Below are positions 15,420 through 19,172 of a stretch of 35,834 nt of DNA, one piece after another (the first letter of the stretch is position 1; each line of letters opens with the position of its first letter). Source of the DNA: an uncultured Erysipelotrichaceae bacterium (GTDB lineage: Bacteria; Bacillota_I; Bacilli_A; Erysipelotrichales; Erysipelotrichaceae). The DNA is taken from NCBI GenBank assembly GCA_902786245.1, contig CADABS010000029.1, forward strand, positions 1 through 35,834, written 5' to 3'. The position numbers and the translations under genes are program-made. The notes beneath the pieces were generated by a model. It did no database searches. It saw only the letters and a program-made list of their open reading frames with translations, and was not told where the DNA came from.

Positions 15420-16112
15420 ATGAGTGTTTTTGCGGCCGGAAAAGAAAGAAACGTACTGATTGAATATAAAAGGAACAGAAATATGTATCTGCGGGTCATG
15501 GATAACGGCGACCTGCATATTACCTGTCCCCGCCGGGTCTCAAAAGCGCAGATCCTTGCGTTTATCAGAGAAAAGGAAGACTGGATCCGGAAGACAGAGC
15601 AGAAGGAAAACAGAAGACAGGAACATACCCTGTGCGGTGAAGACGGAAAGACAGCCTGCTGGCTGGGCAGAAGACTGCCGGTGATCATTGAAAAGGGGAA
15701 TGAGTGCATCATGATCGCGGAAGAGGACTGTATCCGTTTCATCATACCCGACAGCAGTCCCGATACCATCCGCAGCGTATTCTATGAAGCTGCCGCGCAG
15801 CAGCTGCGCATCATGATCACAGACCGCCGGAACGAATGGGATGAAGCAATCTGCCGGGCAAACGGAAAACCGCTGCCGAAGATCACGCTGCGCTGGATGA
15901 CGAGCCGCTGGGGTTCCTGTACACCGGCAAAAGCATCCATCCGCATCTCGCTGCGGCTGATCCATTATCCGCCGGTGTGCCTGGACTATGTGCTTCTGCA
16001 TGAATATGCCCATATGCTCATCGGCGATCATTCCCGCCGGTTCTATGCCCTGATCGGAACCCATATGCCGGATTACCGGGAAGCGGTGCGTATATTGAGG
16101 GAACAGCGCTGA
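15420..16112 (+). CDS. YgjP-type zinc metalloprotease domain protein (DUF45/M48-like)
   Basis: 230 aa, usual family length. The zinc site HEYAH (His 194, Glu 195, His 198) is followed by a third ligand, probably His 204 in GDHSRRF. Upstream RWMTSRWGSC is the conserved YgjP signature. The N-terminal beta-sheet region starts at IEYKRNRNMYLRV, so homology demands the upstream start at 15420 rather than the internal ATG 15483, even though only the latter has a purine-rich AAAGGA before it. No Shine-Dalgarno lies before 15420, and an out-of-frame ATG-CCA-TGA at 15415 overlaps it. Cellular role unproven in this family. Confidence 0.85.
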   Translation: MSVFAAGKERNVLIEYKRNRNMYLRVMDNGDLHITCPRRVSKAQILAFIREKEDWIRKTEQKENRRQEHTLCGEDGKTACWLGRRLPVIIEKGNECIMIAEEDCIRFIIPDSSPDTIRSVFYEAAAQQLRIMITDRRNEWDEAICRANGKPLPKITLRWMTSRWGSCTPAKASIRISLRLIHYPPVCLDYVLLHEYAHMLIGDHSRRFYALIGTHMPDYREAVRILREQR

Positions 16113-16147
16113 AAAACTTTTCAGAAATTTTCTTTGAAAAGTTTTTT
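16112..16147 (+). terminator. Terminator of the YgjP-like gene
   Basis: Perfect 12-bp stem AAAAACTTTTCA/TGAAAAGTTTTT (16112-16123 with 16135-16146). The first base is the last base of the stop codon. Confidence 0.85.
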
Positions 16148-16173: not shown

Positions 16174-16201
16174 TTGAAGAATTGTCTGTTTCGGGTACAA
16201 T
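16174..16201 (+). promoter_or_regulatory. Promoter of the leader ORF and ank/EF-G unit
   Basis: -35 TTGAAG (16174-16179), 16-bp spacer, -10 TACAAT (16196-16201). It is the only promoter-like sequence seen ahead of the ankyrin and EF-G-like genes. Confidence 0.6.
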
Positions 16202-16247
16202 AAGAACAGATATATTTCCAGAACAAAAAGATCGGAGTTGATTAATA

Positions 16248-16352
16248 ATGGTTCGGGTAGAATTGCTTTTTGCTATACAGAACAACAGCGAAAGCCAGGA
16301 GGCATACGGTCTTTTCAATGGGTTTGTATCTGACATTTCACATGTTTTTTAA
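16248..16352 (+). CDS. 34-aa leader peptide candidate
   Basis: Frame MVRVELLFAIQ...DISHVF, 34 codons, with GGAG about 10 nt upstream of the ATG. It lies 46 nt past a good promoter. Its TAA (16350-16352) overlaps the first two bases of a strong terminator (16351-16379), and the next gene starts 38 nt after that terminator with no promoter between. An internal AGGAGG within codons 17-19 could slow ribosomes. This is the arrangement of a translated attenuator leader, though an independent small protein is possible. The peptide is not recognised. Confidence 0.55.
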   Translation: MVRVELLFAIQNNSESQEAYGLFNGFVSDISHVF

Positions 16353-16379
16353 GATGGATGCGGTGCGTCCATCTTTTTT
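16351..16379 (+). terminator. Terminator/attenuator between the leader ORF and the ankyrin gene
   Basis: 11-bp stem (16351-16361 with 16365-16375, one G-U pair) followed by a run of six T (16374-16379). A ribosome finishing the leader peptide would cover the 5' arm. Confidence 0.8.
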
Positions 16380-16416
16380 ACAGCATGGAATCTGATTGAT
16401 CACAGGAGGTATAAGT

Positions 16417-17085
16417 ATGGATCAGACAAATCAGGAATTCTTCGACGCAGCGGCAAGCGGTGATTTTGCCAAGGTCTGCAGCCAGGTTTCCAAAGGCGCT
16501 GATGTCAACGTGGCAAGCGGCGACGGCCGTACAGCACTGATGCGCAGTGCGAAGCGCGGCTATGAAGATATTGTCCGGTATCTGCTTGATAACGGCGCGG
16601 ATCCCAGACAGCGGGACAGAAACAATAAAACAGCTCTGATGGGAGCTGCCAAAAAAGGACATGTAGAAATCTGCAGAATGCTGGTACATGCCGGTGCAGA
16701 TGTCAATTCGCATGATAACAGAGGAAGAACAGCGCTGATGCGTGCTGCGCTTCTCGGTGAAGACGAAGTCGTTGAATATCTCGTTTCCAAAGGCGCGGAT
16801 GTCAACGCAGTCGACGAGCAGGGCAGAACCGCTCTGATGGAAGCGGTCAACGGCTACAAGACAGATATCATCAATTATCTTCTCGACCATGGCGCAAATA
16901 TCAATGCCCAGGATCTCAGAGGCTGCACAGCTCTGATGAGAGCTGCATATATCGGCTATCCGAGTCTTGTCAACCAGCTGCTCGAACACGGCGCAGACAA
17001 GGAAATCAAGGATAACAATGCCAATATGGCGATCCATTATGTCCGCAAGGAATGCCTCGCGGATCTGAAGGATATTCTGAAATAA
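16417..17085 (+). CDS. Ankyrin-repeat protein
   Basis: 222 aa built from about six ankyrin repeats (repeated pattern TALMxAAxxGxxxIVxYLLxxGADxN), starting with a capping helix FFDAAASGDFAKV and ending with a degenerate repeat. No signal peptide or membrane segment, so a cytosolic protein-binding scaffold is likely. ATG 16417 is supported by AGGAGG 7 nt upstream. It is 14 bp upstream of the EF-G paralogue and evidently co-transcribed. Partner unknown; the neighbour is the obvious candidate. Confidence 0.88.
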   Translation: MDQTNQEFFDAAASGDFAKVCSQVSKGADVNVASGDGRTALMRSAKRGYEDIVRYLLDNGADPRQRDRNNKTALMGAAKKGHVEICRMLVHAGADVNSHDNRGRTALMRAALLGEDEVVEYLVSKGADVNAVDEQGRTALMEAVNGYKTDIINYLLDHGANINAQDLRGCTALMRAAYIGYPSLVNQLLEHGADKEIKDNNANMAIHYVRKECLADLKDILK

Positions 17086-17099
17086 TCTGAGGTGAAATG

Positions 17100-19172
17100 A
17101 TGAGAGACTATTTAGCAAATGAAGTAAGAAACGTAGTGGTAATCGGCCACTCCGGCGCAGGCAAGAGTTCTTTGATCGAAGCATGTCTGTATTTCAATAA
17201 GCAGATCGAACGTTTCGGAAAAGCGGCTGACGGTACGACCGCACTGAATTTCGATCCGGAAGAAGGCAAGCGCGGACTGTCCGTATACTGCCATCTGGCA
17301 CCGGTTGAATGGAAGAACAGAAAGATCAACTTCATCGATACACCGGGGTACATGGACTATGAAGGTGAAGAAATCACCGGTCTGAATGTCGGCGACAATG
17401 CCCTGATCGTTGTCAACGGCAAGGAAGGCATCGAAGCGGGAACCGAAAGAGCCTGGAAGGAAGCTGTCAACAAGAGAAAGCTGCCGACCATCTTCTTCAT
17501 CAATAAGATGGATGATGAACATGCGCATTTCGACAAGGTATTCAATGAGCTGCGCGACAAGTTCGGCAAATCCGTCATTCCGTTTGAAATGCCGATCGTT
17601 GAAAACGGCAAGCCGGTAGGCTCTGTCAACATCCTCCGCAAGAAGGCATGGTATTTCAACAACCGCACCCAGCCCCAGGAAGTTCCGGCGGAACTGGCTG
17701 ACCAGGTCGAAGAATACTATGCGGAAATCGCTGAAGCAATCGCTTCGACAGATGATGAACTGATGGAAAAGTTCTTCATGGAAGAACCGTTCGATGAGCA
17801 CGAAATCGCCAAGGGACTCCGCATCGGTGTCCGCAGCGGCGAAATCCGTCCGGTATACTGCGGAAGCGCAGCAGATCAGATCGGTGTCGAAAGACTGATG
17901 GACCTGATCACCGAATACTTCCCGAGCTATGCGGAAAAGGGCCGTGTCAAGGCACTGAATGCCAAGGATGAACCGATTGACATGGAAACGAATGAAAATG
18001 AAGCAATGTCCGCATTCATCTTCAAGACGATCGTCGACCCGTTTGTCGGCAAGGTTTCCTATCTGAAAGTCATGAGCGGCGTTCTCAGCTCTGACTCGCA
18101 GGTATACAACTCCCGCAAGGATACAAATGAAAAGATCAACCAGATCTATGTCATCAACGGCAAGTTCCAGATCGGTGTCGGAAAGCTGTTCACCGGCGAT
18201 ATCGGCGCAGTCGTCAAGCTGCAGTCGACAGAAACCAATGATACGCTCTGCACAAAGAACAGAGTCGTTCACTATCCGGCAATCGAATATCCGGAGCCGA
18301 TGCTCGGATATGCGATCAGCCCGAAGACAAAGGCTGACGAAGACAAGCTGTCTGTCGGTATCAAGAACCTGATGCAGGAAGACGGAACGATCCGTCTCGA
18401 CAATAACGCAGAGACACATGAGCAGGTGCTCTACGGTCTGGGCGACCAGCACATCGATCTGATCGTTTCCAAGCTGAAGTCCAAGTACAAGGTTGAAGTT
18501 GAAACAAAGACACCGACCGTCCAGTACCGTGAGACGATCCGCGGCAAGGCAGAGGCACAGGGACGCTTCAAGAAGCAGAACGGCGGCGCCGGCCAGTACG
18601 GCGACGTATGGGTCCGCTTCGAACCGTGCGATTCCGAAGAAATGGTCTTCGCAGAAGAAGTCTTCGGCGGTGCCGTACCGAAACAGTACTTCCCGCCGAC
18701 AGAACAGGGACTCAGAGACTGTATGGAACACGGTGTCCTGGCCGGATACAAGGTTGTCGGTGTCAAGGCAACGCTGTATGACGGATCCTACCATCCGGTA
18801 GACTCCAAGGAAGTCGCGTTCAAGGAAGCAGCCCGTCTGGCATACAACAAGGCGATGCCGATGGCAAAGCCGACCCTGCTCGAGCCGATCGGAAAAGTCA
18901 CGATCACAGCACCGGAAGAATATACCGGCACGCTGATGGGCGACATCACAAAGAGACGCGGCATGATCATGGAGATGGAGATGAATGACGAGGGCGACCA
19001 GGTCATTCAGGCAGAAGTTCCGGTTGCGGCAATGCTGACATATGCAAACGAACTGCGCGCAATGACGCAGGGCAGAGGCAGATATGTCATGAAGTTCGAC
19101 CGCTATGAACCGGCTCCGAACGATGTTGCCGAGAAGGTCATCGCAGAAGCAAAGGCAAAAAAAGAAGCCTGA
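17100..19172 (+). CDS. EF-G-like translational GTPase (EF-G paralogue)
   Basis: 690 aa with the whole EF-G domain set: G domain (about 1-270), domain II (about 300-390), III, IV (about 480-600) and V. G1 is GHSGAGKS, G3 DTPGY, G4 NKMD. The switch I motif is GLSVYC instead of the canonical RGITI, and G1 differs from GHVDAGKT, both typical of the EF-G-like paralogue group rather than housekeeping FusA. Domain IV includes the GGAGQYGDVWV segment. Paralogues in this group are linked to translation under special conditions or ribosome recycling; the role here is unknown. Start 17100 is preferred over 17097 by spacing from GAGGTG. Confidence 0.88.
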   Translation: MRDYLANEVRNVVVIGHSGAGKSSLIEACLYFNKQIERFGKAADGTTALNFDPEEGKRGLSVYCHLAPVEWKNRKINFIDTPGYMDYEGEEITGLNVGDNALIVVNGKEGIEAGTERAWKEAVNKRKLPTIFFINKMDDEHAHFDKVFNELRDKFGKSVIPFEMPIVENGKPVGSVNILRKKAWYFNNRTQPQEVPAELADQVEEYYAEIAEAIASTDDELMEKFFMEEPFDEHEIAKGLRIGVRSGEIRPVYCGSAADQIGVERLMDLITEYFPSYAEKGRVKALNAKDEPIDMETNENEAMSAFIFKTIVDPFVGKVSYLKVMSGVLSSDSQVYNSRKDTNEKINQIYVINGKFQIGVGKLFTGDIGAVVKLQSTETNDTLCTKNRVVHYPAIEYPEPMLGYAISPKTKADEDKLSVGIKNLMQEDGTIRLDNNAETHEQVLYGLGDQHIDLIVSKLKSKYKVEVETKTPTVQYRETIRGKAEAQGRFKKQNGGAGQYGDVWVRFEPCDSEEMVFAEEVFGGAVPKQYFPPTEQGLRDCMEHGVLAGYKVVGVKATLYDGSYHPVDSKEVAFKEAARLAYNKAMPMAKPTLLEPIGKVTITAPEEYTGTLMGDITKRRGMIMEMEMNDEGDQVIQAEVPVAAMLTYANELRAMTQGRGRYVMKFDRYEPAPNDVAEKVIAEAKAKKEA

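Follow-up and report, generated by a model that had tools for sequence, protein, structure and literature searches.

The leader described here lies in the window (the whole stretch of DNA analysed, 35,834 nt, a single contig, C29), which comes from an Erysipelotrichaceae genome whose closest named relatives are Solobacterium-like bacteria and other members of the family from the gut. It precedes an operon encoding an ankyrin-repeat protein and a paralogue of elongation factor EF-G. The features are as follows (window coordinates).

16111–16147: terminator-like 15-bp hairpin directly 3′ of the upstream YgjP-like metallopeptidase gene (predicted fold).
16174–16201, + strand: leader promoter of sigma-70 type, TTGAAG (16174–16179), 16-nt spacer, TACAAT (16196–16201); read from the sequence, the −10 TACAAT being aligned in relatives.
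16208–16379, + strand: predicted attenuated leader RNA of ~170 nt, its start placed from the −10 box.
16208–16234, + strand: 5′ side of a putative long-range helix enclosing the leader ribosome site (predicted fold and family-wide complementarity).
16234–16237, + strand: GGAG, ribosome site of the leader ORF (sequence; frame of the SD-chosen ATG open in 69/72 leaders).
16248–16352, + strand: leader ORF, ATG at 16248, 34 codons, MVRVELLFAIQNNSESQEAYGLFNGFVSDISHVF, stop TAA at 16350–16352 (family-wide frame conservation).
16297–16302, + strand: AGGAGG inside the leader ORF (sequence; SD-like motifs enriched there across the family).
16307–16331, + strand: 3′ side of the putative long-range helix, a conserved CTTTTC...GGGTT block within the ORF (predicted fold, alignment and swap test).
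16345–16350, + strand: T run immediately 5′ of the hairpin, a possible RNA polymerase pause element (TTTT enrichment).
16351–16379, + strand: intrinsic terminator, an 11-bp hairpin (16351–16375) and a T run to 16379 (folding and arm swap test).
16417–17085, + strand: operon gene 1, ankyrin-repeat protein of 222 aa, ribosome-binding site AGGAGG at 16404–16409 (translation and homologues).
17097–19172, + strand: EF-G paralogue of 691 aa, switch-II DTPGY instead of DTPGH (profile and domain matches).

An initial annotation had read, ahead of the ankyrin gene, a promoter, an ORF of 34 codons preceded by a ribosome site, and a terminator, and we recovered all of these at or near where it had put them. 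Its further proposal, that the stop codon falls inside the 5′ arm of the terminator, agrees with a TAA (16350–16352) overlapping the first bases of the hairpin. The gap between the T run and the ankyrin ATG, which it took to be free of promoters, spans 37 nt and gave no promoter-like pair in the promoter scan. Judged from the sequence, the promoter is 5′ of the leader, with hardly any space for another 3′ of it. The generic promoter scan is by itself non-significant (3 found versus 2.2 expected). Since the YgjP-like gene has its own hairpin at 16111–16147, the leader appears to be transcribed as a unit of its own; this separate hairpin, with the leader promoter in between, rules out the leader terminator as that of the YgjP-like gene. 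The generic terminator scan missed the hairpin at 16351–16375, probably because the T run partly pairs into the hairpin base. Folding nonetheless gives that hairpin −15 to −16.5 kcal/mol (z −4.5), with 0 of 200 shuffles as stable; the whole window leader folds with z −2.3.

Of 196 family genomes sampled, 171 contain a match to the ankyrin protein at E ≤ 1e-20; outside the family, the class sample has none at E ≤ 1e-30. Across the family, orthologues of the EF-G paralogue lie directly 3′ of the ankyrin gene. The paralogue scores 873 bits against NF009381 (cut-off 583) and contains all five EF-G domains; the canonical EF-G of the same genome is located elsewhere, on contig C19. It misses the NCBIfam cut-off for tetracycline ribosome protection proteins (315 versus 775 bits) and scores below that of the Bacteroides EF-G2 model. 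Our motif search covered 30 family copies (L204–L233), one of which was read in the wrong frame (L206) and two of which were unmatched (L217 and L218); the 27 copies with a readable motif all have DTPGY in switch II, not DTPGH. Substitution of tyrosine for the catalytic histidine suggests that GTPase activity is impaired or altered; the H92A variant of E. coli EF-G is highly deficient in GTP hydrolysis (PMC12775393). The genome also encodes a third EF-G-domain-IV protein (C1:97431–97772, L123; ~832 aa) that has DTPGH and is perhaps a ribosome protection protein.

To compare the arrangement between species we drew on two overlapping sets of upstream regions, 90 taken within the family and 77 belonging to named GTDB genomes; their leaders are related sequences, hence statistically non-independent. 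The order SD, ORF (~20–47 codons) and terminator recurs in 86 of the 90 family loci. In all 86 the leader stop lies at −16 to +15 nt from the hairpin start, in a search that accepted stops at −17 to +17 only, and in 47 it lies at exactly −1. Upstream of 111 of 124 distinct leaders is a sigma-70-like promoter scoring at least 8/12 (a raw count). Three Holdemania loci (L054, L055 and L056) keep the leader and have ~215 nt inserted between the terminator and the ankyrin ribosome-binding site; the insert is similar in the three species and has no Rfam match. The leader likewise matches no curated Rfam covariance model, which rules out a known RNA family as its identity. Two loci, L080 and L113, have neither leader ORF nor terminator, with promoter-like sequence or a ribosome-binding site directly before the ankyrin gene; they are natural controls for expression without attenuation.

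In the ten EF-G paralogue copies read from other families of the class, promoter-like sequence immediately precedes the gene and no leader terminator was seen. The leader and the ankyrin gene therefore seem to be features of the Erysipelotrichaceae. An exact-pattern search for the terminator across the family returned five genomes only, all at known ankyrin loci; no second use was seen, an exact pattern being a poor test of this. L275 and L276, from another family of the class, encode EF-G paralogues with DTPGY behind promoter-like sequence and no attenuator.

Whether the short ORF is translated was judged with the ATG picked by its ribosome site alone, ignoring the frame; one passed in 72 of 85 leaders. 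The frame so chosen is open up to the terminator in 69 of these 72, compared with 4 and 11 for the other two frames, which rules out a chance ORF. In 21 of 26 closely related pairs, the lengths differ by a net number of nucleotides divisible by three (a stricter 26-pair set, adopted after gapped-pair indel statistics were discarded for their many poor alignments). The leader thus very likely contains a translated short ORF, and the conservation of leader and terminator in relatives, which the initial annotation had named among its checks, is borne out; the loss of the ORF in relatives that it would have counted as a refutation was not seen. Its peptide behaves differently. In 21 ungapped pairs, substitutions fall evenly over the three codon positions (91/92/104) and 36% of single-change codons are synonymous; this equality indicates that translation is kept and the peptide is not. 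Leader peptides of different genera are unrelated, sharing almost nothing, and together with the codon-position rates this divergence rules out a conserved small protein. By these patterns, what selection preserves is the travel of a ribosome to the terminator, not a peptide.

One alternative would have the ribosome stall inside the leader, owing to a drug, amino-acid shortage or the nascent chain, and thereby alter readthrough in the manner of ermC, bmrB, vmlR or hflXr, the paralogue being a protection or rescue factor. One ribosome factor, HflXr, does lie downstream of an attenuator of this sort (PMC6310831), and NCBIfam places the paralogue near the tetracycline protection proteins, if far below their cut-offs. 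Also in favour of stalling, the leaders of the window clade share VFxVQ and LFGGV motifs at a near-fixed distance from the stop. Yet the glycine in the motif is nearly always encoded by GGG, and the stretch that encodes it also belongs to the SD-complementary RNA described below. No conserved leader peptide of the kind known from erm-, cat- or rli80-type arrest leaders was found, these short motifs of the window clade being the only ones. With peptides that diverge between genera, substitutions equal over codon positions and no hairpin alternative to the terminator arms, we consider stalling unlikely.

Pairing was examined by comparing the complementarity of true segment pairs with that of pairs swapped between 98 dissimilar leaders. 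As the positive control, the two terminator arms covary strongly (z −20). Pairing of leader segments with either arm does not exceed chance (z +1.6 and −0.4), the segment matrix agrees, and on these swap tests we reject an RNA antiterminator. The classical design, in which antiterminator and terminator hairpins exclude each other, is common among translated attenuators in Bacillota; given leader windows no more complementary to either arm than swapped ones, it is highly improbable here. As nothing in the RNA points to an antiterminator, the ribosome itself is likely to be the switch.

A second complementarity emerged from the same test, between the ribosome-site region and the ORF segment 20–65 nt before the hairpin (z −7.8 to −7.9; native −12.5 versus swapped −10.4 kcal/mol). 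Reversed-sequence controls give z −0.1 and 0.4. The signal is present both in the window clade (z −6.9) and in other genera (z −3.6). Pairing between ribosome site and ORF has a probability of 0.555, compared with 0.350 for leaders with shuffled codons (p 1e-10), and in the predicted fold of the window, 16208–16234 pairs with 16307–16331 around the ribosome site. RNAalifold found no consensus structure among 41 aligned leaders, which rules out a single alignable conserved RNA structure and implies that the SD complementarity lacks a fixed register; we accordingly claim complementarity and not a defined fold. The masked site and the conserved CUUUUC-GGGGUU block could instead be a site on the leader RNA bound by a protein (the EF-G paralogue, the ankyrin protein or one of the ribosomal proteins) that governs leader translation or termination. 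With neither an alignable consensus structure nor an Rfam match to speak for it, such autoregulation is very unlikely.

T runs are a further recurrent element. TTTT occurs within the 12 nt 5′ of the hairpin in 75 of 98 leaders (7.2 expected), and further T-run peaks lie near −85 and −40 from the hairpin. The NusG pause motif TTNTTT is present in 21 of 98 (2.3 expected); at that frequency we reject the strict motif as a general feature, the T run itself being enriched. These T runs could be pause elements, and NusG pausing has been described in the vmlR leader (PMC9226507). Bacillota are classed as a phylum with runaway transcription (PMC13323073), so that, over 170 nt, a ribosome may seldom draw level with a polymerase that does not pause; in so short a leader, pausing is needed if the ribosome is to catch up (compare PMC4824070). 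The AGGAGG inside the ORF, which the initial annotation had suggested might add pausing, is not conserved as such, but an SD-like GGAGG at −60 to −50 from the hairpin is modestly enriched, about twofold (33 of 98 leaders versus 15 expected).

How much weight the overlap of stop and terminator can bear was gauged from a genome control of ~430 kb (the window and twenty 20-kb stretches). Stop and hairpin overlap or lie at the edge in 33 of 166 terminator-bearing ORFs (~20%; median distance 13.5 nt), counted in a mechanical ORF set of which some are not genes. Such a share is to be expected in a phylum with runaway transcription, and overlap alone is therefore weak evidence for regulation, which weakens it as proof of function. 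The initial annotation's central idea, a ribosome at the stop acting as the switch, keeps in its favour a stop codon on the first arm and the absence of an antiterminator, but loses the overlap as an argument sufficient by itself. The case rests on a frame conserved without its peptide, on tight clustering of the stops and on the masked ribosome site.

The control also bears on a reading with no translational regulation, in which a partial terminator works constitutively, the overlap reflects a compact layout and the only effect of translating the ORF is to protect or stabilize the RNA. Both the genomic frequency of overlap and the runaway transcription assigned to Bacillota (PMC13323073) fit this. 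What it leaves to be explained is a family-wide open frame without peptide constraint, which needs a reason, and a ribosome site that is specifically masked; moreover, leader stops lie ≤16 nt from the hairpin in nearly all loci, whereas genome-wide distances spread to 75 nt. We regard it as quite unlikely.

Our preferred reading, which we hold to be the probable one, is a ribosome-gated transcription attenuator of pyrBI-like type, in which a ribosome at the stop would block the terminator and no RNA antiterminator would take part. RNA polymerase would start at the promoter (16174–16201), transcribe the leader and by default terminate at 16351–16379. A ribosome reaching the end of the ORF in time would cover the first hairpin arm with its footprint at the stop, the hairpin would be blocked, and the polymerase would read through into the ankyrin and EF-G-paralogue genes. 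The deciding factor would be translation of the leader with a ribosome close behind the polymerase, irrespective of the peptide made, and leader translation is thus expected to promote operon expression. Precedents exist for that sign: in E. coli, termination fell from ~90% to <10% once a stop codon had been relocated to 5 bp ahead of a terminator (PMC4824070), and in the B. subtilis bmrB leader, blocking translation increased termination (PMC4191407).

Within this scheme, the complementarity between ribosome site and ORF may shut off late initiation, such that only an early-loading ribosome can act, and the T runs located some 85, 40 and 5 nt before the hairpin may slow the polymerase while the ribosome catches up. 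Readthrough would rise if the polymerase moved slowly compared with the ribosome, or if ribosomes dwelt at the stop codon. Conditions that may tip this balance in the cell are a polymerase slowed by low nucleotide supply, slow termination or recycling at the stop, and the abundance of free ribosomes. Speculatively, and prompted by a paralogue without the GTPase histidine, the operon might come on at low nucleotide supply or with slow recycling at stop codons. A broader version is possible, though we advance it only tentatively: the leader may be a family-wide sensor of ribosome–polymerase coupling, by which the histidine-less EF-G paralogue is made only when ribosomes keep up or linger, the peptide serves as a ruler, the ribosome acts as the antiterminator and self-masking of the SD limits the decision to the first ribosome.

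Among the closest known systems is pyrBI of Escherichia coli and Salmonella, where the translated pyrL leader ends at the terminator, a following ribosome blocks the hairpin without any antiterminator and U-rich stretches are present. Those pyrBI-type features that can be read from sequence, a stop at the hairpin and no alternative pairing of its arms, are found here, as are a short translated leader ending at an intrinsic terminator and U-rich leader stretches. The systems differ in the gene controlled (an EF-G paralogue, not pyrimidine synthesis), in a ribosome site complementary to its own ORF and in the setting, a phylum with runaway transcription; UTP dependence belongs to pyrBI. Ribosome–polymerase coupling has been noted for pyrBI attenuation (PMC4824070).

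The bmrB leader of bmrCD in B. subtilis is also a translated leader with a terminal intrinsic terminator whose readthrough needs translation; it differs in its predicted antiterminator and anti-antiterminator, structures not found here, and in its response to lincomycin and chloramphenicol (PMC4191407). The Listeria rli80-hflXr (PMC6310831) and B. subtilis vmlR (PMC9226507) loci, like ours, place a factor that acts on the ribosome downstream of a small ORF and a terminator, but work with antiterminator hairpins and antibiotic-stalled ribosomes; rli80 also encodes an RLR peptide motif (PMC6310831), whereas the peptide here is unconstrained. A ribosome factor so placed points to a possible loop from the state of the ribosome to the factor. 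In tet(M)-type leaders, an EF-G-like ribosome protection protein lies behind a translated leader with a terminator. The window operon resembles these in placing an EF-G-like protein behind such a leader, and differs in a protein that scores 315 bits where tetracycline protection requires 775.

Like Bacteroides EF-G2 (fusA2), the window protein is an EF-G paralogue beside a canonical EF-G; to our knowledge, no translated attenuator is known for EF-G2. Bacteroides EF-G2 is reported to lack GTPase activity (EMBO J 2023, as cited in PMC12775393) and is under transcription-factor control by BT4338 (PMC6989115), a mode of control that sets it apart from our locus, as does the window protein's score below the cut-off of the EF-G2 model. 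In the literature searched, we came across no EF-G gene described as being under the control of an attenuator.

Runaway transcription in Bacillota is generally taken to weaken ribosome–polymerase coupling. A leader that, across a whole family, ends its ribosome on a terminator would offer a natural means of finding out if coupling still determines expression in this phylum. A feedback loop through the EF-G paralogue, as initially envisaged, is possible, and the leader would reveal how a cell tunes an alternative translocation factor to its translational state. Should it indeed sense coupling, nucleotide or energy shortage, or slow ribosome recycling, would be linked to a GTP-sparing or recycling factor.
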